Of a stretch of 64,000 nt of DNA, positions 2,382 to 25,088 are shown in pieces. Under the pieces are notes generated by a model that saw nothing but the letters and a program-made list of their open reading frames with translations, ran no database searches and was not told the origin of the DNA. Each line of letters starts with the position of its first letter. The stretch's first letter is position 1. This stretch comes from Rhodoplanes sp. (GTDB lineage Bacteria > Pseudomonadota > Alphaproteobacteria > Rhizobiales > Xanthobacteraceae). The stretch lies in NCBI RefSeq assembly GCF_013377085.1, contig NZ_JACAAX010000004.1:1-64000 (forward strand), in the 5' to 3' direction. The position numbers and the translations under genes are program-made.

Positions 2382-2497
2382 CCGTAGGGCGCAATGAGCG
2401 CAGCGAATTGCGCCGATCATGATCGCCGTGTTTCGCTTCGCTCGACCGGGCCTACGGTTTCTTCGGCGCAATTCGCTGCGCTCATTGCGCCCTACGG
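2382..2497. repeat. 35-bp perfect inverted repeat (type E)
   Basis: The arms 2382-2416 and 2463-2497 are exact reverse complements of 35 bases, separated by 46 bases. Each arm contains the core GGCGCAATGAGCGCAGCG or its complement. It lies between convergent leuD and the SDR gene, and the right arm runs into the SDR stop codon at 2492-2494. It could act as a bidirectional transcription terminator. Mobile palindromic repeats of this kind are common in alphaproteobacterial genomes. Confidence 0.85.
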
Positions 2498-3346
2498 CTT
2501 GTCGCCCGCCTTGACGAAGGCCGCGAAGGCCTCGGCGTAATCCGGATGCCAGCGCGACAGCGGCGGCCGGTTCTCGACGATGTCGCCGGCCGCCCACAGG
2601 ATGCGGCGCGCGTCGAGGGCGTGCGACACCTCGTTGTCCGGGCACAGGATGTAGAAGTCGCCGTGCTCCAGCCGCTCCATCATCGACTCGATGGTCTGCT
2701 CCGGCGTCCAGGCGCCGGCCGGCTTCTCGGTGCGTCCGCGCGCCGTCAGCGCCGTGAACACGAAGCCGGGGATCAGCAGATGGGCCGAGACGGCGCAGCC
2801 CTCGGTGGTGCGCAGCTCGTAGGCCAACAGCTCCGTAAAAGTCTTCACGCCCGCCTTCGAGACGTTGTAGGCCGGGTCGCCCGGCGGCGTGGTGATGCCC
2901 TGCTTCGACCCGGTGTTGATCACGAGGCCCGGTCGGCCGCGCGCCATCATGCCGGGAACAAACACCTGGCAGCCGTGGATCACGCCCCACAGATTGACCT
3001 CGAGCACCCGCTGCCAGCTCGCTTCGGGACCGAACATGTGGCTGCCCGGCTGCACGCCGGCATTGTTCATCAGCACGTCGGTGCCGCCGAACTCTTCGCG
3101 CACCGTCGCTTCCAGCTTCTGGAGGTCGTCCAGCCGGCTCACATCGGTCGCCATGGTCATCACGGCAGCATCCGGCACCGCTGTCTTGATGGCCTGGGCG
3201 GCCGCCGCCAGCCGTTCCTCGCCGAGGTCGGCGAGGCACACGGTCAGGCCGAGCCGCGCGAAGCGCGTCGCCGCGGCGCGCCCGATCCCCGACGCGCCGC
3301 CCGTGACCACGGCGACGGCTCCGGGCGCAAAAGCGGGGTGTGGCAT
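2492..3346 (-). CDS. Short-chain dehydrogenase/reductase
   Basis: A 284-residue classical SDR oxidoreductase. The NAD(P)-binding motif TGGASGIG is at residues 15-22, NNAG at 94-97, and the catalytic triad is Ser147, Tyr160 and Lys164 (YNVSK). Asp40 at the end of the second strand (CLADLG) suggests NAD(H) preference. The start has a strong GAGGAG site. It is the last gene on the minus strand of the purine island, 187 bases after arcC, so it may or may not belong to that operon. The substrate cannot be told from sequence. The last codons lie in the inverted-repeat arm. Confidence 0.85.
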   Translation of the reverse strand: MPHPAFAPGAVAVVTGGASGIGRAAATRFARLGLTVCLADLGEERLAAAAQAIKTAVPDAAVMTMATDVSRLDDLQKLEATVREEFGGTDVLMNNAGVQPGSHMFGPEASWQRVLEVNLWGVIHGCQVFVPGMMARGRPGLVINTGSKQGITTPPGDPAYNVSKAGVKTFTELLAYELRTTEGCAVSAHLLIPGFVFTALTARGRTEKPAGAWTPEQTIESMMERLEHGDFYILCPDNEVSHALDARRILWAAGDIVENRPPLSRWHPDYAEAFAAFVKAGDKP

Positions 3347-3533
3347 CGGGGTCTCCTCGTTCGCGACGGACCGTCCAGCCGAAAACGCGTGTTCGGGCGA
3401 TCCCGTGTACCCGAAATCGCCGGAACCCGCTGTGCCCGTTTCGCAATGGAGCATAACGCTGACGGCGCGACATTGATCGCCCGTCAGCGATCTCGCCGAT
3501 TTGAACGGATTGTCGGTCGTCCCGGCCGCCGGC

Positions 3534-4478
3534 TTACGGCGTGATGCGCGTGCCGCCGCGGCCGGCGAGCGCCGCGGCGAGGTGCTCCTGGTCGGTGATG
3601 ATGGCCTCGCGGCCACCGCCTTCCAGGAACTCGACCACGGCCTGCACCTTGGGCAGCATGCTGCCGGGCTTGAAGTGCCCCTCGGCCATGTGGCGCTTCG
3701 CGTCGGCCACCGTGATGGTGTCGAGCGTCCGCTGCTTCGGCGTGCCGAAATCGAGGCACACCTTCTCGACCCCGGTGGTGATGACCAGCACCTCGGCGCC
3801 GAGCTGGCGCGCCAGCAGGCTGGAGGCGAGATCCTTGTCGACCACGGCGGAGGCGCCGCTGATGTCGCCGTTCGGCTCCTGGACCACGGCGATGCCGCCG
3901 CCGCCCGCCGCCACCACGACGAAGCCCGCATCGAGCAGGGTCTTCACCGCGTCGATGTCGAGAATGGCCTTCGGGTCGGGCGAGGCGACGACGCGGCGCC
4001 AGCCGCGGCCGGCGTCCTCGACGATGGCCCAGCCGTCGTTGCGCCGGTGCTCCTCGGCCTTCTCCCTGGCGAGGAACGAGCCGATCGGCTTGGTCGGGTT
4101 GCGGAACGCCGGATCGTCCGGGTCGACCAGCACCAGCGTCACCAGCGCGGCCGGCGAGCGGGCGAGGCCGGCCCGGCGCAGCGCGTTGCGCAAGGCGAGC
4201 TCGAGCTGATAGCCGAGCGCGCCCTGGGTGTCGGCGACGCAGGAATCGAGCGGCACCTGGTGCATGGTCGGTGCGGCGAGCTCGGAGCGGCGCAGGATGA
4301 ACCCGACCTGCGGGCCGTTCCCGTGCGTCACCACCAGCCGCAGCTCGGGATCGCGCAGCAGGGACACGATCTCCCCGCAGGCGCGCTCCGCGGCCCGGTA
4401 CTGGTCGGGCACCGACTGGTGCGTCTCGTCCGAGATGAACGAGTTCCCGCCGAGCGCGACGACAACCGTCTTCTTCAT
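3534..4478 (-). CDS. arcC: Carbamate kinase
   Basis: A 314-residue amino-acid-kinase-fold enzyme that makes ATP from carbamoyl phosphate and ADP, releasing ammonia and CO2. Family features are the start VVALGGNSF, the VVTHGNGPQVG loop, VVAAGGGGIAVV and the late VDKDLASSLLA segment. Its length equals the usual ~310 residues. It directly follows ygeW with a 32-base gap, the same pairing seen around E. coli ygeW/yqeA, so it probably converts the carbamoyl phosphate released by the transcarbamoylase into ATP. A GGAGG site precedes the ATG. Confidence 0.92.
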   Translation of the reverse strand: MKKTVVVALGGNSFISDETHQSVPDQYRAAERACGEIVSLLRDPELRLVVTHGNGPQVGFILRRSELAAPTMHQVPLDSCVADTQGALGYQLELALRNALRRAGLARSPAALVTLVLVDPDDPAFRNPTKPIGSFLAREKAEEHRRNDGWAIVEDAGRGWRRVVASPDPKAILDIDAVKTLLDAGFVVVAAGGGGIAVVQEPNGDISGASAVVDKDLASSLLARQLGAEVLVITTGVEKVCLDFGTPKQRTLDTITVADAKRHMAEGHFKPGSMLPKVQAVVEFLEGGGREAIITDQEHLAAALAGRGGTRITP

Positions 4479-4510
4479 GCCAGCCTCCTTCCGGCGGAGA
4501 CCGCCGGCAA

Positions 4511-5701
4511 TCAGATGCTCAATGCCTTGGCGCGACGGACGATCTGCTCCAGCTTGGCGCCCGGATCGGAGAGGCGCGTCAGGAACATCAGGGCGCTGAT
4601 GACGAACGGCTTGTAGCTCGCCTCGTTGTAGGTCGGGATGCGGTACTGCTCGAACACCTCGGCGCTCACCTCGCCCGCCTTGCAGCTCACGTCGGTGATG
4701 TCGGCCGGCAGGCAGTGCATGTAGAGCGCCGACTTGTCGCGGGTCAGGTTCATCTTGGCCCGGTCGCATTCCCAATTCTGGAACTTGGCGTTGTTGGCGA
4801 GGCACTCCTTCTCCAGCGCCTTGAGCCCGTCCTTGTCGGAAACCTTCAGGAGCTCGGTGCGGCGCTGCATGACCTGATAGGGCGCCCACGACTTCGGATA
4901 GACGATATCGGCGCCCGTGAAGGCCTGCTCCATGCTGTTGACCACCTCGAACGAGCCGCCGCTCTCGGTCGCGTTCTTGCGGGCGACCTCGATCACCTCG
5001 GGGATCAGGCCGTAGCCCTCCGGGTGCGCCAGGCTCACCTGCATGCCGAAGCGGCTCATCAGGCCGATGACGCCCTGCGGCACCGACAGCGGCTTGCCGT
5101 AGCTCGGGCTGTAGGCCCAGGTCATGGCGATCTTCTTGCCGCGCAGGTTTTCCAATCCGCCGAAATGCTTCTTCAGCCAGGCGAGGTCGGCGAGCGCCTG
5201 GGTCGGGTGGTCGACGTCGCACTGCAGGTTGATGATGCTGGGGCGCCGATGCAGCACGCCCTTCTGCGTGCCTTCGGTGAGCGCGTCACCGACCTCGCGC
5301 ATGTACTTGTTGCCTTCGCCCAGGAACATGTCGTCGCGGATGCCGATCGCCTCCGCCATGAAGCTGATCATGTTGGCGGTCTCGCGCACCGTCTCGCCAT
5401 GCGCGATCTGGCTCTTCTCCTCGTCGAGCTCCGACAGCGTGAAGCCGAGCGCGCTCGCGGCGGCCGCGAAGGAGAACCGGGTGCGGGTCGAGTTGTCGCG
5501 GAAGATCGAGATGGCGAGACCCGCGTCGAAGGCCCGGTAGGAGATGCCCTCCTTGTGAAGCTGCTTGAGCGTCTCGGCGAGCGTCAGGATCGCCTTGATC
5601 TCTTCGGTCGGGTGCTCCCAGGTGATCAGGAAGTCCTTCTGGAAGAGGTTGGTCTTCAGGGCCTGGAAGGCGGCGAGCTCTTTCTCGACGGCGGCGCTCA
5701 T
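4511..5701 (-). CDS. ygeW: Knotted carbamoyltransferase YgeW
   Basis: A 396-residue member of the aspartate/ornithine carbamoyltransferase superfamily, YgeW type. The phosphate-binding STRTR motif is at 71-75, HPTQ at 165-168, and the C-terminal MHCLPAD loop is present. The extended central segment (FLGEGNKYMREVGDAL) and the length above the ~335 residues of OTCase are typical of the knotted YgeW group. The native substrate is not firmly known. In urate-degrading clusters it is thought to phosphorolyse a carbamoylated intermediate to carbamoyl phosphate for ArcC. It lies between ygfK (67-base gap) and arcC. Confidence 0.93.
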   Translation of the reverse strand: MSAAVEKELAAFQALKTNLFQKDFLITWEHPTEEIKAILTLAETLKQLHKEGISYRAFDAGLAISIFRDNSTRTRFSFAAAASALGFTLSELDEEKSQIAHGETVRETANMISFMAEAIGIRDDMFLGEGNKYMREVGDALTEGTQKGVLHRRPSIINLQCDVDHPTQALADLAWLKKHFGGLENLRGKKIAMTWAYSPSYGKPLSVPQGVIGLMSRFGMQVSLAHPEGYGLIPEVIEVARKNATESGGSFEVVNSMEQAFTGADIVYPKSWAPYQVMQRRTELLKVSDKDGLKALEKECLANNAKFQNWECDRAKMNLTRDKSALYMHCLPADITDVSCKAGEVSAEVFEQYRIPTYNEASYKPFVISALMFLTRLSDPGAKLEQIVRRAKALSI

Positions 5702-5767
5702 GGCGGGTTCCTTGCGGGATGGAGTAGGGCAGGGATCGGCTTGGTGGGTCCGGGGTGGAGGTGTCGG

Positions 5768-8700
5768 TCAGTGCCCCGGCAGCACCGGCTCGGCGTCGAG
5801 CAGGGCGATGAGGGTGGCGCAGGGGGTGAGGTCGATGGCTTCGCCTTCGGCGAGAGCGCTGGTCGGCTCCGACGAGAGCCATTCCCATGTGCGTGGCTGG
5901 AGGCGGGCGACGAGCTTCTCCGAGCGGTACACGGCCGCACCGTCGCGGCGCTCCAGGCTGTGGAGGCGACCTCCGAGCCGTGCCTCGACGACGGTCGCGT
6001 CGGCGCTGCGCACCAGGCGGAACGCGTCGCCGTGGGCCTCGCGCCAGCCGTCACCGTCGATCCAGAACCGCGGCTTCTCCTGGTAGGGCGCGCCGGCGGT
6101 CGGGCAGAACGTGGTGCAGTTTCCGCACTCGTTGCAGTAGTCGCCGATATTGACGATCTGCACGCGCTGGCCCACGGCGTGCGGCTTTGCACCGGCGTCG
6201 ACCAGCGCGCCGCCGCGCGCGACCAGCGAAGGCCAGGTGACGCTGAACGGCGAGACCGTGTAGGCGAGGTTGGCGCGGTTCGGGCAGACGGTGACGCACA
6301 GGCTGCACAGGTCGTCGCAGTCGAGGCAACGGCTTGCTTCGCGCACGGCCGCCTCGGGGCCGAAGCCTCCGACGACCTCCGCGAAGCCGGTCCGCTCCGC
6401 GACGGGGAGCACCGGCACGGTCTGCGGGGGCACGCTCCGCGCCTTCTTGTCGAGGAGCGCCGCCGGCTTAGCCTGCTTGTCGAGCGCCGGTTCCGCCTCC
6501 GGGGCGATGCCGTGGCGGCGTGCGATCTCGGCCGCGACCGCATGGCCGTCGGCGATGGCCTTGATGACCGACGCCGCGCCGCGCGACACGTCGCCGCCGG
6601 CGAACAGCCCGGCGACACTGGTCTCGCAGGTGGTGGCGTCGACGACCAGCGTGCCGTCGCGCCGGCGCGCGACCTCGAGGCCCTCGAGGAAGTCCAGCAC
6701 CGGCTCCTGGCCGATGGCCGGGATCACGGCGTCGGCGGGCAGCAGCACCTCGTCGCCGCCGGCGGGCACCGGCCGCGGCCGACCCGAATCGTCGGGCGGT
6801 CCCAGGATCATCCGGGTGCAGGCGAGGCCGACGACCCGGCCGCCTTCGGTCACGATGCGGGCAGGCGCCAGGAGGTCGCGGATGACGGCGCCCTCCTCGA
6901 TGCACTGCAGCACCTCCTCGGCGTCGGCCGGCATCTCGGCGCGGGTGCGGCGATAGATGATCGACACCTCGCCGTCCGGGGCGAGGCGACGCGCCGTGCG
7001 GGCGGCGTCCATCGCCGAGTTGCCGCCGCCGACGACCAGGATGCGGCGACCGAGCGCGGGCGGCCGTTTGGCGCGCACCGCATTCAGGAACTCCAGCGCG
7101 TCGACCACGCCGGCGGCGGTCTCGCCGTCGATCGCGAGCCGCTTGCCGCGCTGCGCGCCGATGGCGAGGAAGACGTAAGGATAGTCCCGGCGCAACTGGT
7201 CGAGCGTCATGTCGCGGCCGAGCGCCTTGCCGAATGCGATGGGCACGCCGAGCGTCCGGAGCCGGTCGACGTCCTGCTCGATCGCGTCGCCGGCGAGCCG
7301 GTAGCCCGGGACGACGCCGTTCACCGTGCCGCCCGCCGCCGCCCTGGCGTCGAACAGCGCCGGCTCGAAACCCGACTTGGCGAGATAGTATGCGGCGGCG
7401 AGCCCGGCCGGCCCGGCGCCGACGATGGCGACCTTGATGCCGTTGGGCGGCCCGGCGCGTTCCGGCGACGCCTCGCCGTGCTCGAAGGCGAAGCGCTTCA
7501 CCTCGCGGATGGCGAGGGGCGCGTCGTAGAAATTGCGGACGCAGCGCTCGGTGCAGGGGTGGTCGCAGATGCTGCCGGTCATGCCGGGCTGCGGGTTGGT
7601 GCGCAGGATGACGTCGAGCGCGTCGGAGGGGCGCCCGTGTCCCACCAGCCACAGATAGTCGGCGATGTTCTGGTGCGCCGGGCACGCCTCCTGGCAGGGC
7701 GCGGCGATGCAGTCGAAGCGGCCGAGCGCACGCGGCCCCTTGAAGACCAGCGGGCGCTCGCGGCTGGCGTAGCGTTCGTCCCGTGCGACCGACTCGGCAT
7801 GGCGGGCCAGATTGAAGCGGGCGCCGCGCCCGCCGGACCTCGCCTGCACGAACGCCTCGATGCTGTCGGCCCCGGCGTCCGCCATGGCGGCGTCCAGGTT
7901 GACGAGATACTGCTGCAGCCGCGCGTAGCCGCCGGGCTTCAGCAGATCGGTGCAGACCGTGACGGGCCCGAGCCCGTCGGCCACCAGGTCGGCGAAGTTC
8001 CGGGCGTCGGCGCCGCCGCAGAAGCTGATCGGAACCCGCCCGTCCAGCTCGTCCGTCACCAGGCCCGCCAGGGTCAGGGTCAGCGGATGCAGCGAGCGGC
8101 CGGACATGTACATCATCTTCTCGGCGGCCGGGAAGACGGGACGCCGGTTGACCACCTCCAGCGTGTTCGACAGCTTGAGCCCGAAGCTCTGCGGGCGGCC
8201 GGCGGCGATCTCGGCGAGGTTCTTCACCATCGTCATGGCGTCTTCGAAGCGCGGGTCGTGCTCGAACGCCGCGTCCGGAACCTCGATGTCGAAGCCGAGC
8301 GTCCGGTTGAGGATGCTGCGCAACCGGTCGGGGCCGAGCAGCGTCGGATTGAGCTTCACCCAGGTGTGGACGCCCAGCTCCGTCAGCAGGTAGCGCGCGA
8401 TGCGCTCGATCTCGGCCGGCGGGCAGCCGTGCATGGTCGACAGCGTGATGTGGTCCGAGATCCGAAGCGGGATCTCGATGTCGCGCACCGCCGGATAGAC
8501 CTTCGCGACCGCCTCGACGGCCGCCGGCAGCGCCTCGCTCGCGTCGCGCAGCGAGGCGATGAATCGCTGCACGCGCGGCGTCTGGATGCCGGCGAGGTCG
8601 TAGCCGACGCTCATCGCGAAATGGGTGCCGGGATCGGCGAGGCCCATCCGGTGCGCCAGCGCGTGCACCAGCACCCAGGCGTTGAGGTATTCGTCGTAGG

Positions 8701-9052
8701 ACTGCTCGAGCTTCAGCTCCTGCGACCATTCGCAGTTGTAGGTCTCGTCGGCCGAGTCGATGCAGGGTCGGCTGACGGCGATCTCGTCTAGAATCTGGAC
8801 CGTCTTCAGCTCGATGAAGCGTGCGCCGCACAGCCAGCTCGCCACGATGTTCTGGGCGAGCTGCGTGTGCGGACCGGCGGCGACGCCGAGCGGCGCGGCC
8901 ACCGTGTGCCCGAACATGCGCGCGGCGACCCGCGGCCCGGGAACGGCGAAGTTGGCCTGCGGAATCCCCATGACCGAGTCGCGCGATTCCAGCTCGCCGA
9001 AGATCCAGCGAGCCAGCAGCTCGATCGGAGCGGGACGGAACGGCTTGTCCAT
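5768..9052 (-). CDS. ygfK: Flavin/Fe-S oxidoreductase YgfK
   Basis: A 1094-residue multidomain protein annotated in databases as 'putative selenate reductase subunit YgfK'. Residues 1-430 resemble a dihydroorotate-dehydrogenase-like barrel. Fe-S cysteines follow at 448, 453, 457, 496, 500 and 504. A glutamate-synthase small-subunit-like FAD/NAD(P) module has GAGPAG at 545-550 and GGGNSAMD near 675-682. The C-terminal 4Fe-4S region has Cys909, 912, 916, 919, 923 and Cys973, 976, 979, 983. This layout parallels dihydropyrimidine dehydrogenase. It is required for urate use in E. coli-type clusters, and the N-terminal domain may reduce a purine-derived ring. The ATG at 9052 is where homologues begin. 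Confidence 0.93.
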   Translation of the reverse strand: MDKPFRPAPIELLARWIFGELESRDSVMGIPQANFAVPGPRVAARMFGHTVAAPLGVAAGPHTQLAQNIVASWLCGARFIELKTVQILDEIAVSRPCIDSADETYNCEWSQELKLEQSYDEYLNAWVLVHALAHRMGLADPGTHFAMSVGYDLAGIQTPRVQRFIASLRDASEALPAAVEAVAKVYPAVRDIEIPLRISDHITLSTMHGCPPAEIERIARYLLTELGVHTWVKLNPTLLGPDRLRSILNRTLGFDIEVPDAAFEHDPRFEDAMTMVKNLAEIAAGRPQSFGLKLSNTLEVVNRRPVFPAAEKMMYMSGRSLHPLTLTLAGLVTDELDGRVPISFCGGADARNFADLVADGLGPVTVCTDLLKPGGYARLQQYLVNLDAAMADAGADSIEAFVQARSGGRGARFNLARHAESVARDERYASRERPLVFKGPRALGRFDCIAAPCQEACPAHQNIADYLWLVGHGRPSDALDVILRTNPQPGMTGSICDHPCTERCVRNFYDAPLAIREVKRFAFEHGEASPERAGPPNGIKVAIVGAGPAGLAAAYYLAKSGFEPALFDARAAAGGTVNGVVPGYRLAGDAIEQDVDRLRTLGVPIAFGKALGRDMTLDQLRRDYPYVFLAIGAQRGKRLAIDGETAAGVVDALEFLNAVRAKRPPALGRRILVVGGGNSAMDAARTARRLAPDGEVSIIYRRTRAEMPADAEEVLQCIEEGAVIRDLLAPARIVTEGGRVVGLACTRMILGPPDDSGRPRPVPAGGDEVLLPADAVIPAIGQEPVLDFLEGLEVARRRDGTLVVDATTCETSVAGLFAGGDVSRGAASVIKAIADGHAVAAEIARRHGIAPEAEPALDKQAKPAALLDKKARSVPPQTVPVLPVAERTGFAEVVGGFGPEAAVREASRCLDCDDLCSLCVTVCPNRANLAYTVSPFSVTWPSLVARGGALVDAGAKPHAVGQRVQIVNIGDYCNECGNCTTFCPTAGAPYQEKPRFWIDGDGWREAHGDAFRLVRSADATVVEARLGGRLHSLERRDGAAVYRSEKLVARLQPRTWEWLSSEPTSALAEGEAIDLTPCATLIALLDAEPVLPGH

Positions 9053-9093
9053 GGAGCACCCGTGGGTTGTCTTCGCCTCTCGAGCCGGGAAGG

Positions 9094-10635
9094 TCAGTGG
9101 CCGGTCGCGAACACGCTGGGGAAGCGCGCCAGGAACGCGATGCAGTGCCGCAGCTCGCGCACGTCGACGCACTCGGCGATCTTGTGGGTGTTCTGCTCGA
9201 TGCCGGGCGCGAAGCCGAACATGGCCGGGTGCTTGTAGGCGCCGGAGACGACCCACTTCTTGCTCTCGCCGACCGGGATCGAGGTGTCGTCCTTCGGCAC
9301 CGGATAGCCGACGCCGTCAGTCGAGAAGATCCAGCGGTCGACGCGCGGCTCCTTCGGGATGCTGCCGCCGGTGCCGCTCTTGCCGTTCACATGCGGGCTG
9401 ATGACGCCCTTGTAGGCCGTCACGGCCGCCGCGATGGCGGGATGCTCCTCAGGCGTCACCCAGCCGAGATAGATCTGCTTGTTGTTGAGCACGTAGCCCT
9501 TCCAGCTCGCGTCCGGATAGACCGGCACGGCGACCTCGACCTGGAGGCCGGCGGCGCGCGCCGCCGCGACCGAGGACAGGGCCTCGACGTCCTTCACCGA
9601 CTGCTCCGGCGTCTCGCCGATGGTGAGGCGACGGTCGAAGCGGAACACGAAGCGGGCCGGCACGGCGCAGTCGCTCGGCGTGTCGAGGGTCGACCACGAG
9701 GCCGTGCGGGTACCGTGGCCCAGGAAGGCGTTGTCCAGGAAGCCCTCGCGCTTCTCGTACTTCTCGGCGGCTTCTTTCAGGATGGCGGCGCCGTATTCGA
9801 GCGGGTTGAGGCCCATCCACGGCATCGAGCCGTGCGAGGAGCGGCCCGTCACCGTCACCTCGATCTGCATGCGGCCGCGCTGGCCGCGATAAATGCCGAG
9901 CGCGCCCTTCTTGGCGTCGCCGGTGGAGTCGGTGAGGATGACGACGTCCGGGATCAGCTCGGCTTTGGCGCCCGGCAGCACGTTGCGCATCACATACATA
10001 GGGCCGGCGCCGTCGTTGTCCTCCTCGCACACCGTCGCGTAGGAGCGCACGATCACGCCCTTGAGCGCGCCCTCCGGCGCCAGCTCCAGGAGAATCTTCG
10101 AGGCGACGATCTGCGAGATGACGCCGCCGAGCTGGTCGGCCGAGCCGCGCCCGAACAGCAGGTGCTCCCACTCGGTTTCCGGCGGCACCCAGCCGAGCTC
10201 CTTCTCCAGCATGGCCTTGTCGATCTTGGAGCGGTCGAGCAGGCCGTCATAGACGTCGACGCCGCCGTTGGTCTTCTCCAGCCACACGGGCCGCAGCGGC
10301 TTCACCGTGTCGGTGTGGCCGTCGAGATAGATGACCTTCTTGCTGTCGGCCGGAATGCCGTCGCTCGGATCGCTCACGACCCAGACGAGATTGCCGAAGG
10401 CGTCGAAGTTGACGTCCTTCGGATCGCGGACGGCGCCGATCTCGATGATGCGCTTGCGGAGATAGTCGAGCCGCGGAAACTCGTGGTTGGAGGTGCCGCA
10501 ACGCGGGTCGCCGCCCTGGTCGGCCGGGCGGTCCACGTAGTCGGCGGGGATGCGAATGGCTTCCTTCAGGATCTCGATCGCCAGGGGATGATACTTGGCG
10601 GCGAGCTCGGCCACGCGCCCATCGAGTTTCGACAT
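9094..10635 (-). CDS. ygeY: YgeY-type M20 family hydrolase
   Basis: A 513-residue M20 metallopeptidase-fold hydrolase. The metal-binding motif LDGHTDTV lies near residue 92, followed by GRGSADQLGG and the acidic CEEDNDG, with a late STDGVGYP segment. It is somewhat longer than E. coli YgeY (~400), mainly through an insertion around GGVDVYDGLLDRSKID. YgeY homologues act in the urate cluster, probably on a ureido or peptide-like bond of a ring-opened intermediate; the exact substrate is inferred. It is the first gene of the minus-strand operon (ygeY-ygfK-ygeW-arcC). A GGAG site precedes the ATG. Confidence 0.88.
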   Translation of the reverse strand: MSKLDGRVAELAAKYHPLAIEILKEAIRIPADYVDRPADQGGDPRCGTSNHEFPRLDYLRKRIIEIGAVRDPKDVNFDAFGNLVWVVSDPSDGIPADSKKVIYLDGHTDTVKPLRPVWLEKTNGGVDVYDGLLDRSKIDKAMLEKELGWVPPETEWEHLLFGRGSADQLGGVISQIVASKILLELAPEGALKGVIVRSYATVCEEDNDGAGPMYVMRNVLPGAKAELIPDVVILTDSTGDAKKGALGIYRGQRGRMQIEVTVTGRSSHGSMPWMGLNPLEYGAAILKEAAEKYEKREGFLDNAFLGHGTRTASWSTLDTPSDCAVPARFVFRFDRRLTIGETPEQSVKDVEALSSVAAARAAGLQVEVAVPVYPDASWKGYVLNNKQIYLGWVTPEEHPAIAAAVTAYKGVISPHVNGKSGTGGSIPKEPRVDRWIFSTDGVGYPVPKDDTSIPVGESKKWVVSGAYKHPAMFGFAPGIEQNTHKIAECVDVRELRHCIAFLARFPSVFATGH

Positions 10636-10826
10636 GATTTTCTCCAGTTGACCGGAATGCGGGGTCCGCACTCCGCGACGAACCGCCCCCTCGGGCCGCA
10701 CGCCGACAACGCCCACCCAGGCCGTCGCCACCGATCCGCAGGACTTCGTACGGGACGCGAACCTCGTGACGGTCCGGATGCCGCGGCGGGCGGACGCGGC
10801 GTATACCCGGCCGGTTCGCTCTCCAT

Positions 10827-10870
10827 GAAACACGAATTTCGTATTTGCGTCTAGATGAAATTTGTGTTTC
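10827..10870. promoter_or_regulatory. Probable RpiR operator, 44-bp dyad
   Basis: Two 14-base sites, GAAACACGAATTTC (10827-10840) and GAAATTTGTGTTTC (10857-10870), are inverted copies with one mismatch, and each is itself of form GAAA-N6-TTTC. Their centres are 30 bases apart, about three helical turns. They lie between divergent ygeY and the rpiR-type gene and stand out as AT-rich in GC-rich DNA. RpiR proteins bind such palindromes, so this is the expected autoregulatory and pathway operator; binding itself is inferred. Confidence 0.6.
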
Positions 10871-10880
10871 TTTTCTCCTC

Positions 10881-11717
10881 ATGGTGCAGCCGTTGGAACA
10901 AGCGATCCGCGCCCATTATGAACGGCTGCCCGCCGGCGAGCGGAAGATCGCCGATGTGCTGTTGGATATCGGCGACGATCTCCCGGCCTATTCGGCGACC
11001 GAGCTGGCCGGCCGCGCCGGGGTGTCGAAGGCCACGGCGACCCGGCTGGTGCGCCGCCTCGGCTTCGCCGACTATCAGGAGCTCCGCCAGCGCACGCGCG
11101 CCAGCCAGGCGGCGGGCTCGCCGCTCGCCGAGCTGCACGGCGCCGCCTTGCCCGGTTCGCTCGGCCGCCATCTCGAGCACGACCTCACCTGCCTGGCCCG
11201 GACCCTCGAGGGGGTGGCGGCCGGCCAGGCCGGCCGCGCCGTCGACATTCTGGCCGGCGCCGGCACCGTGTGGGTGGTCGGGTTCCGCAACAGCCACGCC
11301 CTCGCTCTCTATGCCCGCGAGCTGCTCGTGCAGGTGAAGCCGGACGTGCGGCTGCTGCCGCTGCCGGGCCAGACGCTCGCCGAGGATCTGTCCGCCCTCA
11401 AGCGGCGCGACGCCGTGCTGACCATCGGTTTCCGTCGGCGGCCGCCGGTACTCGCCAAGATCGTCCGCGCCGCCAACCAGGCTGGCGCCGAGGTGGTGCT
11501 GCTGGCTGACCCTTCGCTCGGTGATCTCGGCGACGAGGCTGCCGTGACGTTCCGCTGCCTCGGCCGCGGCGCGAGCCTGTTCGATTCCTACGTGGCTCCG
11601 ATGAGCCTTCTGAACTACCTGTGTGCAGAGGTCGCTCTCGCGCTCGGCGAGGCGGCGCAAGCGAAGCTTCGACGCAGCGAGCAGTTGCACGAGGCCTTCG
11701 GCGACTTCGGATTCTGA
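10881..11717 (+). CDS. RpiR/MurR family transcriptional regulator
   Basis: A 278-residue regulator with an N-terminal helix-turn-helix (ATELAGRAGVSKATATRLVRR, about residues 38-58) and a C-terminal SIS sugar-phosphate-type sensor domain (about 115-245, WVVGFRNSHALALY). It sits at the divergent promoter of the purine island, just before the XdhD-like gene (14-base gap), so it probably controls both arms in response to a pathway intermediate. The ATG at 10881 has no clear Shine-Dalgarno sequence; a TTG at 10845 in the same frame is the alternative, but that would place the operator inside the gene. Ligand unknown. Confidence 0.85.
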   Translation: MVQPLEQAIRAHYERLPAGERKIADVLLDIGDDLPAYSATELAGRAGVSKATATRLVRRLGFADYQELRQRTRASQAAGSPLAELHGAALPGSLGRHLEHDLTCLARTLEGVAAGQAGRAVDILAGAGTVWVVGFRNSHALALYARELLVQVKPDVRLLPLPGQTLAEDLSALKRRDAVLTIGFRRRPPVLAKIVRAANQAGAEVVLLADPSLGDLGDEAAVTFRCLGRGASLFDSYVAPMSLLNYLCAEVALALGEAAQAKLRRSEQLHEAFGDFGF

Positions 11718-11731
11718 GGAGGGGCGCCACA

Positions 11732-14368
<2,637 letters not shown>

Positions 14369-14397
14369 GGATATGATGCGACCGAGCATCACCTTTC

Positions 14398-14534
14398 GTC
14401 ATTCCGGAAGCCGACCGAAGGTCGGCTGTCCGGAATCCATAACCCCGGTCTGTGTGTATGGATTCCGGGCTCGCCGCGGAGCCTGTCATCGGGCCGGCCA
14501 AAGGCCGGACCCGGTGGCGGCGCCCCGGAATGAC
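14398..14534. repeat. Palindromic repeat type A (copy 1)
   Basis: It begins GTCATTCCGG and ends CCGGAATGAC, with internal GGAATCCATA / TATGGATTCC arms. It fills the gap between the XdhD-like gene and ssnA, ending a few bases before the ssnA ribosome site. Other copies are at 21083, 28308, 40136, 45081 and 55182. Confidence 0.85.
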
Positions 14535-14547
14535 TGGAGCTGAAACC

Positions 14548-15750
14548 ATGGCTTCCGCAACCCTCCTCGTCGGTCCCGACAAGCACGGCCGCAGCGTCGC
14601 CATCGTCGACGGCATCGTCGCCGCGACGGCGCCGGCCGGCACGCCGGTGCTGGCCTGTCCGGACGGCGAGATTTTTCCAGGCGCCGTCTGCGCCCACACC
14701 CACATCTACAGCGCGCTGGCGCCCTATGGCATGCCGAAGGCCGAGCCGGCGCCGGAAAACTTCATCCAGATCCTCGAGCGGGTGTGGTGGCGCCTCGACC
14801 GCGCCATCGACGCCGAGACGCTGCGGGCCGGCGCGCGCGACTATGTCGCCAAGGCCCTGCTCGCCGGCACCACGACGCTGATCGACCACCACGAGTCACC
14901 CAATCTGATCGAGGGGTCGCTGAAGGTTCTCGCCGACGTGTGCGACGAGCTCGGCATCCGGGCGATGCTGTGCTTCGGCGCGACCGAGCGCAATTTCGGC
15001 CGCGACGAGGCGGTGCGCGGGCTCGCCGAGAACCGCAACATCAAGCCGTCGCCGCTGCTGCGCGTCCTGGTCGGCCTGCATGCGAGCTTCACGGTGTCGG
15101 ACCAGACGATCGGCGAGGCCGGCGATCTCGCCCGCGCCCTCGGCACCACCGTGCACGTCCATGTCGCCGAGGATCTGGCCGACGTCGCGGATGCCAAGCA
15201 GCGCGGCTATGTGGGCCCGCTGGAGCGGCTGATCGCGCTGGGCGCTCTCGTGCCGGGGTCGATCCTCGCGCACGGCGTGCATCTCGATGCCGCGCAGGTG
15301 CGCCTCGCGGCGGAGCACGGTGCCTGGTTCGTGCAGAATCCGCGCTCCAACGAAGGCAACCAGGTGGGCTACGCCCGCAACCTCTCGCAGGTGCCGACCG
15401 TGGCGCTCGGCGTCGACGGCTGGAACCCCGACATGGGCGAGGAACTCTCGGCGCTTTCGCGTCTCGCGGCGCAGAACGGTGACGACGCGGTCTCCGGACC
15501 ACGGGCGGCCGGCCGTCTCGCCAAGGGACACGCCCTGATGGCGGAGCGTTTCGATCTGCAGTCCGATCCGCTGGCGCCCGGCGCGGCCGGTGACTTGGTG
15601 GTACGCAGGGGGGGCGCCGTCGTCGATGTCGTCGTCGCCGGACGCCACGTGGTGGCGGACGGACGGCTGGTCGGCGGCGATGCAGGCGCGTTCGAGACGG
15701 CGGCCCGCGCCGAGGCGACCCGCCTGTGGGATCGGATGAAGAATGTATGA
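14548..15750 (+). CDS. ssnA: SsnA-type amidohydrolase
   Basis: A 400-residue metal-dependent amidohydrolase of the SsnA/TrzA group. The metal-binding HTHIYSAL motif follows PGAVCA near residue 50; LIDHHES, HVHVAEDLADV, ILAHGVHL and LGVDGWNPDMG supply the other expected ligands (His, His, Asp). SsnA belongs to the E. coli ygfK-ssnA-xdhD neighbourhood and to bacterial urate-degrading clusters; deamination or ring opening of a purine-derived heterocycle is inferred. It is slightly shorter than E. coli SsnA (~440). A GGAG site precedes the ATG. Confidence 0.88.
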   Translation: MASATLLVGPDKHGRSVAIVDGIVAATAPAGTPVLACPDGEIFPGAVCAHTHIYSALAPYGMPKAEPAPENFIQILERVWWRLDRAIDAETLRAGARDYVAKALLAGTTTLIDHHESPNLIEGSLKVLADVCDELGIRAMLCFGATERNFGRDEAVRGLAENRNIKPSPLLRVLVGLHASFTVSDQTIGEAGDLARALGTTVHVHVAEDLADVADAKQRGYVGPLERLIALGALVPGSILAHGVHLDAAQVRLAAEHGAWFVQNPRSNEGNQVGYARNLSQVPTVALGVDGWNPDMGEELSALSRLAAQNGDDAVSGPRAAGRLAKGHALMAERFDLQSDPLAPGAAGDLVVRRGGAVVDVVVAGRHVVADGRLVGGDAGAFETAARAEATRLWDRMKNV

Positions 15751-15784
15751 TAGGACCCTACGGCTCGCGTCGGTGCATTTCACC

Positions 15785-15912
15785 ACTCCCCGCGCGCGGG
15801 GAGAGGTCGGAGTCCGCGCCCGCGGCGCGGACTCCGGGTGAGGGGGCGCTCCCGTATCCACGAGGCGCCCCCTCACCCCGACCCTCTCCCCGCAAGCGGG
15901 GAGAGGGAGAAG
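15785..15912. repeat. GC-rich palindromic repeat type C (copy 1)
   Basis: Nested hairpins: CTCCCCGCGCGCGGGGAG at the left, CTCCCCGCAAGCGGGGAG at the right, and a GAGTCCGCG / CGCGGACTC pair inside, with CTCACCC/GGGTGAG strings. It separates ssnA from the PLP enzyme gene in the same direction. Related elements occur at 23364, 26447, 30364 and 48528. Confidence 0.8.
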
Positions 15913-15996
15913 GAACCAGCTCTCCCGCCCGGGAGGGGAGCGCGCCCGGCGCTCGACTGACGCAAACGAACTGATCATCACGAACGGAAGGACATC

Positions 15997-17490
<1,494 letters not shown>

Positions 17491-17581
17491 TCGGTCCAAC
17501 CGCCCTCACCCTGAGGAGGCCGCGAAGCGGCCGTCTCGAAGGGCGGGGCGGCCTAGGTGCCCAGCCGCAAAGCTCAGAGCC

Positions 17582-17666
17582 GTCATGCCCGGGCTTGTCC
17601 CGGGCATCCACGCCTCCGGGCCGATACCGCAAAGTCGTGGATGGCCGGGACGAGCCCGGCCATGAC
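17582..17666. repeat. Palindromic repeat type B (copy 1)
   Basis: GTCATGCCCGGGCTTG... and ...GAGCCCGGCCATGAC form the outer arms, with CATCCACG / GTGGATGG inside. It lies between the two PLP enzyme genes. Similar copies are at 19332 and 47725. Confidence 0.85.
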
Positions 17667-17706
17667 GAGGCAGAGGCCAGGCCTCTTTGATCCACTCCGG
17701 TTTCCG

Positions 17707-18999
17707 ATGACCAATTCCGTTCCCAACTTCGTCTGCCACGGCTGCGGCGCGCGCGTCGCCATCGATGCAGCCTTGCCGTTCGCCTGTCCGAACACCCGCG
17801 ACGGCGACGATATCGATCATCTGCTGGTGCCCGAGGACGGCCCACCGGCGTTTGCGCCGGGCGCGGAGACAAATCCGTTCCTGCGCTATCGCGCGCTGCT
17901 GTCGCCGTATCGGCTCGCCCGCGCGGCGGGGCTCTCCGACGCGGCCTGGGACGATCTCGTCGATGCGCTCGACCAAAAGCTCGTCGCGGTCGACGGGCGC
18001 GGCTTTCGCGTCACGCCGATGACGGCACAGCCGGCGCTCGCCCGGGCGCTCGGGCGCGACGCACCGCTCTGGGTGAAGGACGAGACCCACAACGTCTCGG
18101 GCTCGCACAAGGCGCGCCACCTGATGGGCGTGCTGCTGTATCTGCGGGTCTTGGAAGCGGCCCGCCTTCCGGCCGCCGATGGCCTGCGTGGGCGAAAACT
18201 GGCGATCGCGTCCTGTGGCAATGCGGCGCTCGCTGCCGCCGTGGTGGCGCGGGCGGCCGACTGGCCGCTCGACGTGTTCATTCCCCCCGATGCCAGCCCC
18301 GCCGTGGTGGCGCGGCTCGTCGACCTCGGCGCCACCGCCACGATCTGCGATCGCCGTCCCGGCGAGACCGGCGACCCCTGCGTCACCGCGTTCCGCGCCG
18401 CGGTGCGCGACGGCGCGTTGCCGTTCGGCGTGCAGGGACCGGACAACGGCCTGGCGATCGAGGGCGGCCGCACGCTCGCCTTCGAGATCGCCGAGGTCTT
18501 GGCGCACGCCGGCGGTGATCCCGGCACGCTCATGGTGCAGGTCGGCGGCGGTGCGCTGGCGTCCGCGCTGGCGCAAGGGCTTTCCATCGCGACGGCGGCC
18601 GGGCGGCTCGCCCGGATGCCGCACCTGATCGCGGTCCAGACCGCCGGCTGCGCGCCGCTGGCCCGGGCCTTCGGCAAGACGGCCGGCGTCGACCTCGCCG
18701 AGGCGGCCCGGCATCGCGCAAATTTCATGTGGGCCTGGGAGACGACGCCGCACAGCCTCGCCCACGGTATTCTCGACGACGAGACCTACGACTGGCTGGA
18801 GATCGTCAAGGGCGTCCGCGGCAGCGGCGGCAGCGTGGTCGTCGTCGACGAGGCTGCGGTGGCGCGGGCCCATGCGCTCGCCCACGAACACACGGACGTC
18901 GACGCCTCGGCGACCGGCACGGCCGGACTCGCCGGGCTCGTCGCCGCGCCGGTTCCGGCCGGTCCGGTCACGGTGATTTTCTCCGGGGTGGAGCGGTAG
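17707..18999 (+). CDS. Threonine-synthase-like PLP enzyme with zinc-ribbon start
   Basis: A 430-residue fold-type II PLP enzyme. Residues 8-30 have Cys10, Cys13 and Cys27 in a CxxCG...C pattern like the metal-binding N-terminus of threonine-synthase-like proteins. The Schiff-base lysine is likely Lys135 (GSHKARHLMG) after the VKDETHN segment, and the phosphate/asparagine loop is SCGNAALAAAV. QVGGGALASAL supplies the phosphate-binding glycines. A true threonine synthase is unlikely given the setting between ssnA-type genes and a ferredoxin. A role as ammonia-lyase on a diaminopropionate-like intermediate is a guess. The start was chosen at the first ATG after the repeat. Confidence 0.8.
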   Translation: MTNSVPNFVCHGCGARVAIDAALPFACPNTRDGDDIDHLLVPEDGPPAFAPGAETNPFLRYRALLSPYRLARAAGLSDAAWDDLVDALDQKLVAVDGRGFRVTPMTAQPALARALGRDAPLWVKDETHNVSGSHKARHLMGVLLYLRVLEAARLPAADGLRGRKLAIASCGNAALAAAVVARAADWPLDVFIPPDASPAVVARLVDLGATATICDRRPGETGDPCVTAFRAAVRDGALPFGVQGPDNGLAIEGGRTLAFEIAEVLAHAGGDPGTLMVQVGGGALASALAQGLSIATAAGRLARMPHLIAVQTAGCAPLARAFGKTAGVDLAEAARHRANFMWAWETTPHSLAHGILDDETYDWLEIVKGVRGSGGSVVVVDEAAVARAHALAHEHTDVDASATGTAGLAGLVAAPVPAGPVTVIFSGVER

Positions 19000-19104
19000 C
19001 GCCGAGGCACCGCGCTCTTTCGAGCGATTCCAATCCGGATTTCCCCCAAATGGCGCGCGAGGCGCCGGCCTGATACGCCGGATTCCGAGAAGGAGACTTG
19101 CGTC

Positions 19105-19299
19105 ATGGCCTACAAGATCGTCGCCTCGCAATGCACCGCCTGTGGCGCCTGCGAATTCGAATGCCCGAACACCGCCATCAAGATGAAGGGCGACATCTAC
19201 ATCATCGATCCGGCGAAATGCCAGGAATGCGAGGGCAGCTTCGACGAGCCGCAATGCGCGGCCGTGTGCCCGGTGCCGAACACCTGCGTTCCGGCCTGA
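19105..19299 (+). CDS. 2[4Fe-4S] ferredoxin
   Basis: A 64-residue soluble ferredoxin with two cluster motifs: Cys10, 13, 16, 20 ([12 protein letters not shown]) and Cys39, 42, 51, 55. The CxxC-x8-CxxxCP form of the second motif is that of Allochromatium-type and nitrogen-fixation-type ferredoxins; Cys61 is extra. It is the last gene of the plus-strand arm. Because the XdhD-like protein lacks an FAD domain and YgfK is rich in Fe-S centres, this ferredoxin is a reasonable electron carrier between them; that link is inferred. A GAGAAGGAG site precedes the ATG. Confidence 0.88.
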
Positions 19300-19445: not shown

Positions 19446-20219
19446 TCACCCGCCCGCGCTCATCGACGAGCGGAACGCCCAGCCGACGAAGTACGATTCC
19501 ACATAGGCGAAGATCGCGTACATCACGATGCCTTCCGCCGCGAGCAGCAAGAGCCCGGCGAAGACCAGCGGCATCTGGAAGTTCGAGCCCGCCTGCACCA
19601 TCAGGAAGCCGAGGCCGGCATTGGCCGCGATCGTCTCCGACACCACGGTGCCGACGAAGGCGAGCGTGATGGCCACCTTCAGCGAGCCGAACAGATAGGG
19701 CTGGGTGCGCGGAATCCCGATCTTCAGCATGATGTCGAGCTTTTTCGCCCCGAGTGCGCGAAGAACGTCCTCGAGCTCCGGCTCGATGGTCGACAGGCCG
19801 GTCGCGACATTGACGACGATCGGGAAGAACGAGATCAGGAAGGCGGTCAGGATCGCCGGGATCTCGCCGATGCCGAACCAGATCACCAGGATCGGCACCA
19901 CGGCGACCTTGGGCACCGAGTTGAAGCCGATCATCACCGGGTAGAGCCCGCGATAGATCGCCCGCGACCAGCCGACGACGATGCCGAGCACGATCCCGAA
20001 CGCCACCGCGAGCGCGAAGCCGGCGAGCGTCGTCCACAGCGTGACGAACGAGTTCTTGGCCAGCGGCCACCAGTACTGCCCCATCGCGACGAAGATCTGC
20101 GAGGGTGCCGGCAGGATGAACGGGTCGACCTTGAAAGCGCGGCAGACGATCTCCCAGATCAGGAACATGCCCAGCGTGAACAGCCAGGGCGACAGTCGTT
20201 CCATTGCGTTGGTACTCAT
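19446..20219 (-). CDS. ABC transporter permease (SsuC/TauC type)
   Basis: A 257-residue inner-membrane permease with about six helices and the BPD-transport signature around EDVLRALGAKKLDIMLKIGIPRTQPYLFGSLK, here spread near residues 155-190. It belongs to the nitrate/sulfonate/taurine/thiamine-precursor group. It overlaps the ATPase gene by ATGA, so the two are translationally coupled. With the ATPase and binding protein it makes a complete importer. The substrate is not evident; position between the urate genes suggests a purine or other nitrogen compound. Confidence 0.88.
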   Translation of the reverse strand: MSTNAMERLSPWLFTLGMFLIWEIVCRAFKVDPFILPAPSQIFVAMGQYWWPLAKNSFVTLWTTLAGFALAVAFGIVLGIVVGWSRAIYRGLYPVMIGFNSVPKVAVVPILVIWFGIGEIPAILTAFLISFFPIVVNVATGLSTIEPELEDVLRALGAKKLDIMLKIGIPRTQPYLFGSLKVAITLAFVGTVVSETIAANAGLGFLMVQAGSNFQMPLVFAGLLLLAAEGIVMYAIFAYVESYFVGWAFRSSMSAGG

Positions 20220-21004
20220 CCCTTGCGCACCTCCCCGATTTTGGCGCGCAGCTCGTGCACGATGTCCGTGAAGGCCGGCTCGAAGCAGACCTCGATCGGC
20301 CGCGGGCGAGGAAATGGAATCTCCTTGGTCATCACCAGGCGTCCCGGCCGGGCGCTCATCATGTGAATCCGGTCGGCCAGAAAGGTCGCCTCGCGCAGGT
20401 CGTGCGTCACCAGGATCACGGTGAAGCCGATCTTTTCCCAGAGGTCGCGCAGGACACACCAGAGCTCTTCGCGCGTGAAGGCGTCGAGGGCCGCGAAGGG
20501 CTCGTCGAGCATCAGCAGCGCCGGCGAGTGGATCAACGCGCGGCACAGCGAGACGCGCTGCTGCATGCCGCCGGAGAGCTCCCACGGGAAGCGCTCGGCA
20601 AAGCCGTCGAGGCCGACGGTGGCGAGCAAGGCGCGCGCCTCCTCGCGGTAGCGCTCCTTCTCGCGCCGGAAGCGCGAGCGGTGCGGCTGCACGATCTCGA
20701 GCGGCAGCAGCACGTTGTCGATCACCTTGCGCCACGGCAAGAGGTTGGGGTTCTGGAACGCCATGCCGGCCATCTTGACCGGGCCGCGCACCGTCTCGCC
20801 GCCGATCTGGATCTTGCCGAAGTCGGGCGGCACGAGGCCGGTGACCAGCTTCATCAGCGAGGATTTGCCGCAACCGGACGGACCGACCACGGCGGCGAAC
20901 TCGCCTTTCTGCAGGCTGACGCTGAAGCGGTCGAGCGCATGCACGCCGCCATTGGCGCCCTTGTAGACGAGGGTCACGTCATCGATGTCGACGAAGGCCG
21001 TCAT
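20216..21004 (-). CDS. ABC transporter ATPase (SsuB/TauB type)
   Basis: A 262-residue ATP-binding subunit. Walker A is GPSGCGKSS (about residues 42-50), the Q-loop is FQNPNLLPWR, the signature is ELSGGMQQR, Walker B is LLMLDEPFAALD, and the switch histidine is in VTHDLREA. It pairs with the permease that overlaps its 3' end. A type-A repeat separates it from the substrate-binding protein gene upstream on the same strand, which could lower its expression relative to the binding protein. Confidence 0.9.
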   Translation of the reverse strand: MTAFVDIDDVTLVYKGANGGVHALDRFSVSLQKGEFAAVVGPSGCGKSSLMKLVTGLVPPDFGKIQIGGETVRGPVKMAGMAFQNPNLLPWRKVIDNVLLPLEIVQPHRSRFRREKERYREEARALLATVGLDGFAERFPWELSGGMQQRVSLCRALIHSPALLMLDEPFAALDAFTREELWCVLRDLWEKIGFTVILVTHDLREATFLADRIHMMSARPGRLVMTKEIPFPRPRPIEVCFEPAFTDIVHELRAKIGEVRKG

Positions 21005-21082
21005 GATGCGGCGTCCGTCGGCATCGGGCCGCAGGCGCGGTGGGAGGAAGAGAAGAAACGCATGGCGTACTCGTGTTGCGCC

Positions 21083-21188
21083 GTCATTCCGGGGCGCGGG
21101 CGAAGCCCGCGAACCCGGAATCCAGCGGCGGACTCGGAGTTTGGGGCTGGATTCCGGGTCCGACGCTGTCGCGTCGTCCCGGAATGAC
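21083..21188. repeat. Palindromic repeat type A (copy 2)
   Basis: The ends are GTCATTCCGGGGCGCGGG and CCCGGAATGAC, with inner GGAATCCAGC / GCTGGATTCC arms. It lies between the substrate-binding protein and ATPase genes of one operon. Confidence 0.85.
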
Positions 21189-21199
21189 GTGGTCTTCGA

Positions 21200-24720: not shown

Positions 24721-25088
24721 GGCCGAGACCTCGTGATGTCGGGGGTGGCGAGCCCGCCTGGGAGGTCCGTCGGGCGACCTCCATTCGAATCCCCGGTCGG
24801 GCTCCGAGGGCGGCGCACCATGGCAGAGGCGAGCCGGCGAGTTCAAGCCGGCGCCGACCGGTAGCCGCCGGCTAGTTTTTGGGCAGGCCGCCCACGACGC
24901 GGGCGGTAGCCGCGAGGCCTGGCCTACGGAGTTGTCCGGATGACGGGATTCCGGTCGTCCGACTGATCGGCCGACCTGCGGACAACCTTGGCATGCTCCT
25001 TGCGATTTGCTCCCCCGCCGGCCGTCCGGCCGCGCTCTCGGGGCGCCCGACTCTGGCGCCCGGGTTCTGGAACGAACAAGGAGTGACG
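24721..25088. other. Divergent intergenic region puuD-urtA
   Basis: This is a 368-base gap with no credible gene. Small ORFs across it are GC-driven. It holds the sigma-54-type promoter for urtA at 24989-25003 and must also contain the puuD promoter, for which I see no clear sigma-70 elements. Several short GC-rich hairpins (for example GTAGCCGCCGGCTAG near 24860) are present. Confidence 0.6.
24989..25003 (+). promoter_or_regulatory. Sigma-54 (RpoN) promoter for urtA
   Basis: TGGCATGCTCCTTGC matches TGGCAYG-N4-TTGC with exact GG-to-GC spacing and a preceding T-rich base (CTTGG). The start site would fall near 25015, giving a leader of about 75 bases to the urtA ATG. Urea transport genes are often under NtrC/RpoN control, so this agrees with the gene's role. 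No full NtrC palindrome was found upstream. Confidence 0.7.

Follow-up and report, generated by a model that had tools for sequence, protein, structure and literature searches.

The reductive uric acid pathway of Escherichia coli is encoded by the cluster ygeW-ygeX-ygeY-hyuA-yqeA ... ygfK-ssnA-ygfM-xdhD (Li et al. 2025, PMC12507026). The same paper describes a variant in Clostridioides difficile, in which YgeW and YqeA are replaced by UacY, a homologue of D-aminoacylases whose active site resembles that of 3GIQ, the reductase is the PydA-type UacX, and the flavin adenine dinucleotide (FAD) subunit YgfM is lacking. On the Enterococcus faecalis plasmid pCF3A-343-2 (NZ_CP142821), a selenium-dependent xanthine dehydrogenase, SsnA, YgfK, YgeW, ArcC and YgeY are annotated together, and the cluster also contains hydA, dpaL (YgeX) and selenium-cofactor genes. 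A 2025 commentary asked whether the reductive route arose long ago or only recently, as an adaptation to the gut, and leans to the latter (PMC12990295). A literature search that mostly stopped short of full texts returned no paper on this pathway in phototrophs. In this study, we analyzed a stretch of 64,000 nucleotides (the window; positions 1 to 64,000 of contig NZ_JACAAX010000004.1) from the 6.5-Mb draft genome of the alphaproteobacterium Rhodoplanes sp. We found that its block at 2492-19299 corresponds to the reductive urate (yanthine) gene set reported in 2025, as a variant and not as a copy. The block probably encodes an environmental form of this pathway beside an oxidative route, and we infer every reaction in the host from the genes.

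Gene content and relation to known urate clusters

The block consists of two divergent gene sets around one RpiR-type regulator (Table 1). The minus-strand arm includes ygeY-like, ygfK, ygeW, arcC and a short-chain dehydrogenase (SDR) gene, and the plus-strand arm includes rpiR, xdhD-like, ssnA-like, PALP1, PALP2 and a small ferredoxin gene. An earlier note on this DNA had grouped arcC, ygeW, ygfK, ygeY, an XdhD-like fusion and ssnA at one regulator, and all of them are indeed present at 3534-19299. That note had also matched the genes to the urate clusters of E. coli and gut bacteria. The match stands for YgeW, YgfK and XdhD, which exceed their family cut-offs, and is less certain for SsnA and YgeY, which are the best families of their proteins with scores far below the cut-offs. 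YgeX is absent. The comparison with the E. coli homologues, also proposed there, gave identities of 64% for YgeW, 46% for YqeA, 37% for YgfK, 34% for SsnA, 33% for YgeY and 26% for XdhD.

Like the E. coli cluster, the block has YgeW, a carbamate kinase, a long YgfK, SsnA-kind and YgeY-kind proteins, and an XdhD-kind enzyme with fused iron-sulfur and molybdenum domains. Unlike that cluster, it lacks YgeX, the FAD subunit YgfM and a linked HyuA, its XdhD is of the selenium-dependent xanthine dehydrogenase type, and it contains two other pyridoxal phosphate (PLP) enzymes, an SDR, a ferredoxin and the RpiR-type regulator. The likeness to the C. difficile variant, drawn from its published description and not from sequence, lies in an XdhD without FAD subunit and in a D-aminoacylase that takes the part of YgeW in five related loci (see below), whereas the reductase is of YgfK type and not the PydA-type UacX. 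The six enzymes named first above for the Enterococcus cluster have counterparts in the window, and that cluster differs from it in containing hydA, dpaL and the selenium-cofactor genes.

Exchangeable modules beside a conserved core

The block is syntenic in one congener (G004) and, minus ygfK, in two others (G001 and G002), and its frames are open and conserved at 74-96% between the window and these three genomes. The SDR gene keeps its position in all three. Another congener, G003, retains the core fdx-palp2-palp1-ssnA-xdhD-rpiR (70-86% identity). However, between rpiR and an aconitase-C-domain (LeuD-like) gene, two other genes replace the ygeY-ygfK-ygeW-arcC block of the window. The first encodes an M20 enzyme of the allantoate-amidohydrolase/hydantoinase-carbamoylase kind (NF006769 470, cut-off 452), and the second a 550-aa D-aminoacylase (PDB 1m7j 5.1e-37; 3gip/3giq 1.1e-29), the N-terminal piece of which alone gave weak amidohydrolase matches only. 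A YgeY-like protein was not found in G003 at 1e-10 (YgeW was not sought throughout this genome), and the SDR gene was not found in its locus. The ferredoxin gene has the same position in G004 and G003, and none was seen in the G001 and G002 loci. We regard the swap in G003 as matching the UacY-for-YgeW/YqeA swap of C. difficile.

The same two modules occur outside the genus. The contigs of GTDB genomes were scanned with patterns from a five-row PALP1 alignment; this confirmed at least 588 stretches, of which the 80 best were kept as loci, a sample that covers only clusters with PALP1. One row of the alignment came from G941, which was rejected as a PALP1 taxon: one frame there (L049, 8540-11269) runs an Omp85 protein into PALP1 and is probably an assembly chimera. 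In the gene clustering of the best 80 loci, SsnA-kind genes were found in 21, XdhD in 17, YgfK in 8, YgeW-kind carbamoyltransferases in 8, HyuA in 7, YgeY in 5 and YgeX-like genes in 4; these counts are lower bounds since many contigs are short. Three of these carbamoyltransferases, in L060, L074 and L102, were matched better by ornithine carbamoyltransferase models and were excluded from the YgeW count, which drops three loci that have PALP1 with an XdhD-kind or SsnA-kind gene.

The D-aminoacylase is present in five loci (G003, L052, L057, L058 and L106), and those of L052, L057, L058 (partial) and L106 are 76-79% identical to that of G003. A YgeW-class enzyme with the 513-aa YgeY-like protein is present in nine loci (window, G004, G001, G002, L053, L059, L080, L086 and L089). 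YgeW is truncated by the contig end in L053; in L059, L080, L086 and L089 it is the best family and scores below the cut-off, and the fetched stretches of L059 and L086 contained neither XdhD nor SsnA. None of the five genus loci and 80 fetched loci had both modules. The carbamoylase occurs without the D-aminoacylase in L130 (60%), L070 (46%) and L111 (37%).

The fullest sets were found in Anaeromyxobacter, a betaproteobacterium, Sterolibacterium, Telmatospirillum, Myxococcota and Acidobacteriota. For instance, the Anaeromyxobacter locus L052 includes YgfK (cut by the locus edge), XdhD, carbamoylase, D-aminoacylase, HyuA, SsnA, PALP1 and PALP2. The Sterolibacterium locus L058 includes the partial D-aminoacylase at its edge, HyuA, a short YgfK, XdhD, SsnA, PALP1, PALP2 and a protein 51% identical to the E. 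coli urate permease UacT, and the Telmatospirillum locus L106 includes D-aminoacylase, carbamoylase, rpiR and the core. The XdhD-SsnA-PALP1-PALP2 core was found in these three genera, Acidobacteria and others, several with a short YgfK. Two unrelated gene sets with the same expected chemistry thus occupy one place, and no other sequence evidence speaks as strongly for cleavage of a diureido compound by the block.

In addition, two 13-bp inverted arms (starts 10828 and 10857) lie directly before rpiR. They are kept in all five genus loci (window, G004, G001, G002 and G003) with at most two mismatches per arm, whichever module sits on the other side of rpiR, and one arm is found in L106. This 42-bp inverted repeat is likely the operator of RpiR.

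XdhD was found in 6/6 genomes of the genus, the window's own included, and in 0/18 other genomes of the family searched (E 1e-150). YgeW was found in 1/397 genomes drawn from the order, namely the window's own (1e-80), and in 3/385 drawn from the class (1e-100), namely the window's own, G491 and G701, of which the latter two have E. coli-like YgeW (72-73%) and YgeY (58%). Both draws evidently omitted the congeners that carry YgeW. The single hit in the order, although its draw missed congeners, and the lack of an in-cluster YgfK in G001 and G002 could fit a relic or partly dead acquisition that is retained for nitrogen salvage through YgeW and ArcC only. We consider this very improbable: the frames are open and conserved as given above, XdhD is in every genus genome, the inverted repeat is conserved, and the position in G003 is filled by the expected functional equivalents and not simply empty.

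YgfK itself occurs in two forms. The window protein has an N-terminal FMN-type domain, an FAD/NAD(P)H module and a 4Fe-4S module (Pfam). The in-cluster YgfK of eight fetched loci (one truncated by the locus edge, two checked for family) matches it over the N-terminal part only and has no FAD module. Long YgfK lies in the cluster of the window genome and G004, with no short form among the matches listed, while G001, G002 and G003 have a short YgfK outside the cluster and gave no match to the long form. In a tree of the N-terminal domain (15 rows, long-branch warning at the first join), the long YgfK of the window and G004 joined E. coli and Enterococcus (support 100/100), and the short YgfK of G001-G003 joined the in-cluster YgfK of Roseiarcus (99/99). 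On the plain reading, two congeners seem to depend on an NAD(P)H-linked YgfK of the gut type, and the rest depend, or may depend, on a short form, which would need a different electron donor. Stand-alone YgfK-like proteins of 698 aa without FAD module were seen off the cluster in three congeners (L026 13484-15580, L028 13822-15918 and L030 13279-15375); the gene in G001 adjoins a PBP-like protein and a hybrid histidine kinase.

Table 1. Features of the window, with the matches on which their names rest (scores against family cut-offs, E values or structures)
Feature	Position	Strand	Basis
Short-chain dehydrogenase (SDR), after arcC	2492..3346	-	PF00106 5.8e-43
Carbamate kinase ArcC/YqeA	3534..4478	-	NF009007 394 bits, cut-off 266
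Knotted carbamoyltransferase YgeW	4511..5701	-	TIGR03316 612, cut-off 500
YgfK, long form	5768..9052	-	TIGR03315 911, cut-off 835
YgeY-like M20 hydrolase, 513 aa	9094..10635	-	TIGR03526 165, cut-off 321.5
Inverted repeat AAACACGAATTTC-N16-GAAATTTGTGTTT, likely RpiR operator	10828..10869	.	Conservation across genus loci
RpiR/MurR-type regulator (HTH_6 + SIS)	10881..11717	+	PF01418 4.9e-13, PF01380 8.7e-6
XdhD-like molybdenum hydroxylase	11732..14368	+	TIGR03311 905, cut-off 830.45; Pfam
SsnA-like amidohydrolase	14548..15750	+	TIGR03314 243, cut-off 455.5
PALP1, PLP enzyme of cysteine-synthase fold	15997..17490	+	
PALP2, PLP enzyme of threonine-synthase/serine-dehydratase kind	17707..18999	+	PF00291 3.5e-38; threonine synthase 2zsj 1.3e-11
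2x[4Fe-4S] ferredoxin	19105..19299	+	PF12838, PF00037
ABC transporter (permease, ATPase, NMT1-type binding protein), between both urate gene sets	19446..22210	-	PF00528, PF00005, PF09084
OHCU decarboxylase-HIU hydrolase fusion	22430..23317	-	PF09349 3.3e-51, PF00576 5e-33
PuuD cytochrome-c-type urate oxidase, start approximate	23515..24729	-	PF06181 7.8e-129 (Urate_ox_N membrane domain); C-terminal CSMCH haem motif
D-hydantoinase/dihydropyrimidinase, sole HyuA candidate seen in window	48746..50161	-	TIGR02033 532, cut-off 393

Urate against other substrates

Several observations weigh against urate as the substrate. The SsnA-like and YgeY-like proteins have SsnA (2.7e-80; next kind 1.6e-25) and YgeY (1.2e-54; next kind 2.9e-19) as their best families, and both scores lie under the cut-offs. 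Glu606, proposed for the specificity of E. coli XdhD, is absent in the window XdhD; as a test of specificity this residue proved uninformative, since it is missing from the Enterococcus and Collinsella enzymes too. The clusters of G001 and G002 have no YgfK, and only a short one was found elsewhere in these genomes. E. coli UacT had no match among the window open reading frames (ORFs), and neither had E. coli YgeX (blastp 1e-3) among those searched; the block thus lacks the diaminopropionate ammonia-lyase, one of the enzymes that define the pathway. The hydantoinase at 48746 lies 30 kb off and outside the tree group of in-cluster HyuA (support 82/85), and 0/11 genus hydantoinases placed in the tree (of 28 matches) fall within it. 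The activity of PALP1 and PALP2 is predicted only; PALP1 has XdhD beside it in 17 and an SsnA-kind gene in 21 of the best 80 loci, many of them short contigs, and the conserved neighbours of actinobacterial PALP1 are mostly housekeeping genes.

An alternative that we consider unlikely is that the block uses enzymes of the urate kind on another N-heterocycle or ureido compound (for example a hydantoin, a pteridine or a different oxopurine), the adjacent uricase being coincidental. The divergence of SsnA and YgeY, the selenium-type XdhD off the E. coli XdhD branch, the lack of YgeX and the lack of a uricolytic-group HyuA among the hydantoinases tested would suit it. However, every step of the urate route save HyuA and YgeX has a gene with the best family of that route, two different modules of the same expected chemistry are interchanged, a UacT-like permease is encoded in L058, and uricase genes are adjacent in the window and G004. 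All these argue for urate.

The XdhD-like protein consists of fused 2Fe-2S and molybdenum domains without an FAD domain (Pfam), and the model that it passes, TIGR03311, is that of selenium-type xanthine dehydrogenase. It is 41% identical to the Enterococcus enzyme, and in the XdhD tree it falls in a 13-row clade with other in-cluster XdhD, off the E. coli branch. The block holds no counterpart of YgfM next to XdhD; E. coli YgfM matches only the xanthine dehydrogenase subunit at 50160. A selenium-dependent XdhD would be compatible with the presence of SelD in 6/6 genus genomes, without being shown by it.

The published survey of the pathway relied on the SsnA family IPR017700 (PMC12507026). Only 2/23 SsnA-kind proteins scanned (of 27 collected) reach E 1e-134, which is about the NCBIfam SsnA cut-off. 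If that model underlies IPR017700, as we assume, the survey may have missed most of these proteins. Residues H85, H87, H240, E243, H277 and D325 (aligned-frame numbering), which we take to be the metal site, are invariant in all 23 aligned proteins.

The earlier note had named the hyuA-type hydantoinase 30 kb away as part of the set. The gene is real and over its cut-off, but its part in the pathway is weakened by the tree, in which the in-cluster group comprises the proteins of E. coli, Enterococcus, Collinsella, Anaeromyxobacter and Sterolibacterium, by its location in the draft genomes G001 and G004, where it and the cluster lie on different contigs, and by its presence over the cut-off in 8/20 other genus or family genomes (congeners G003 and G005, with XdhD, and six without XdhD). 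It adjoins ureG in G004 and G001 and a second xanthine dehydrogenase in the window and G001. The latter enzyme (FeS-FAD and molybdenum subunits, with XdhC) occupies 50160-54171 of the window, and this block including ureG is conserved in G001. A reductive pyrimidine route was sought as owner of the hydantoinase, and PRK08318 was over the cut-off in 0/4 genomes.

PALP1 and PALP2 match PLP families other than YgeX, and PALP1 is a candidate enzyme for the diaminopropionate step. It might instead act one step earlier, on albizziin, and release its ureido group by elimination as urea, with which the block would feed the adjacent urease. We give this idea very little credence: genes for ureido hydrolysis, YgeY-like or carbamoylase, are present in the same clusters, the published order is YgeY and then YgeX (PMC12507026), and the urease suits the oxidative route as well.

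The neighbours of actinobacterial PALP1 (ClpP, RNase PH, DprA and the like) were uninformative as a clue to function. PALP1-PALP2 pairs were seen in L110, L114 and L131, with PALP1 58-59% identical to that of the window, as in other actinobacterial metagenome-assembled genomes; the titles of these three records, Bifidobacterium breve or Acidimicrobium ferrooxidans, look doubtful. Relatives of PALP1 also occur on conjugative plasmids of Bosea and Rhizobium (L158 9070-10404 and L159 8962-10461) near TauE/SafE exporters and M20 hydrolases, a context hinting at another beta-elimination substrate. In L099, an alanine-racemase-fold aldolase/dehydratase, distantly BhcC-like (8802-9866, minus strand), adjoins PALP1, and this family is present in 10/80 loci.

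Oxidative genes, host and proposed route

The genes of the oxidative route adjoin the block in the window and G004. As in the PuuD route of Agrobacterium (PMC4562309), there is a PuuD with a C-terminal cytochrome c motif, an HIUase and an OHCU decarboxylase; unlike in that route, the PuuD set adjoins a reductive one. The earlier note had overlooked these genes and the lack of YgeX. Past PuuD lie a branched-chain/urea-type ABC transporter and ureD, and urease subunits, recognized by eye, follow further on. The note had tied urea transport and urease to the reductive set. According to the published texts, that route ends in pyruvate, ammonia and carbamoyl phosphate (PMC12507026, PMC12990295). 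Thus, urease would be better suited to the neighbouring oxidative route, and the proposed tie is not supported. An Rfam 5_ureB_sRNA match (116.8 bits, cut-off 40) lies at 34669-34954 on the minus strand, antisense to the start of the apparent urease alpha gene; conserved urease coding sequence alone may be its source.

Two adjacent reaction-centre genes (PF00124), presumably pufL and pufM, were found in 5/6 genus genomes, the window's included, and the sixth genome is 58% complete. The host is thus most likely a purple phototroph and not simply the respiratory soil-type bacterium supposed before. Such a host should also grow without oxygen, and a gut habitat does not follow from the pathway. 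The suggestion that oxygen-independent urate breakdown has a role beyond the gut is supported, together with the gene identities.

The route can be outlined as follows. XdhD would reduce urate to 2,8-dioxopurine (yanthine); since the block has no FAD subunit, its electrons would come from ferredoxin or another donor. YgfK would reduce the ring with NAD(P)H, SsnA would open it to ureidomethyl-hydantoin, and an unlinked hydantoinase may open the second ring to give 2,3-diureidopropionate. YgeW would transfer one ureido group to phosphate, ArcC would form ATP from the carbamoyl phosphate, and the YgeY-like enzyme would hydrolyze the other ureido group. PALP1, PALP2 or both may substitute for YgeX and convert 2,3-diaminopropionate to pyruvate and ammonia. 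RpiR, on the inverted repeat and in response to a presumed signal, would control both arms, and PuuD with the HIUase/OHCU-decarboxylase fusion would act on urate as well whenever electrons can pass to the respiratory chain.

A broader view, which we offer tentatively and would not yet favour, is that environmental bacteria have had this modular pathway since early times and that the gut clusters are one offshoot of it. XdhD, SsnA, PALP1 and PALP2 would be its fixed core, joined by YgfK in one of two forms, the short one perhaps supplied by ferredoxin and the long one by NAD(P)H, and the ATP-yielding YgeW-ArcC-YgeY module would be interchangeable with the hydrolytic D-aminoacylase-carbamoylase one. 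PALP1 and PALP2 would be a new enzyme pair for the last step, and in purple phototrophs the placement of the pathway beside a cytochrome-type uricase would let the cell use urate as electron acceptor or as electron donor.

The reductive and oxidative sets side by side, with parts swapped in environmental relatives, suggest that the reductive route, known mainly from gut bacteria, is no gut speciality. With a diverged form of it in what is likely a phototroph, and in genomes from groundwater and other environments (according to their record titles), the question of ancient or gut origin becomes testable. Furthermore, the finding supplies candidates for those steps that lack their known enzymes, and a natural setting in which to study how one cell decides whether to reduce or to oxidize the same purine.

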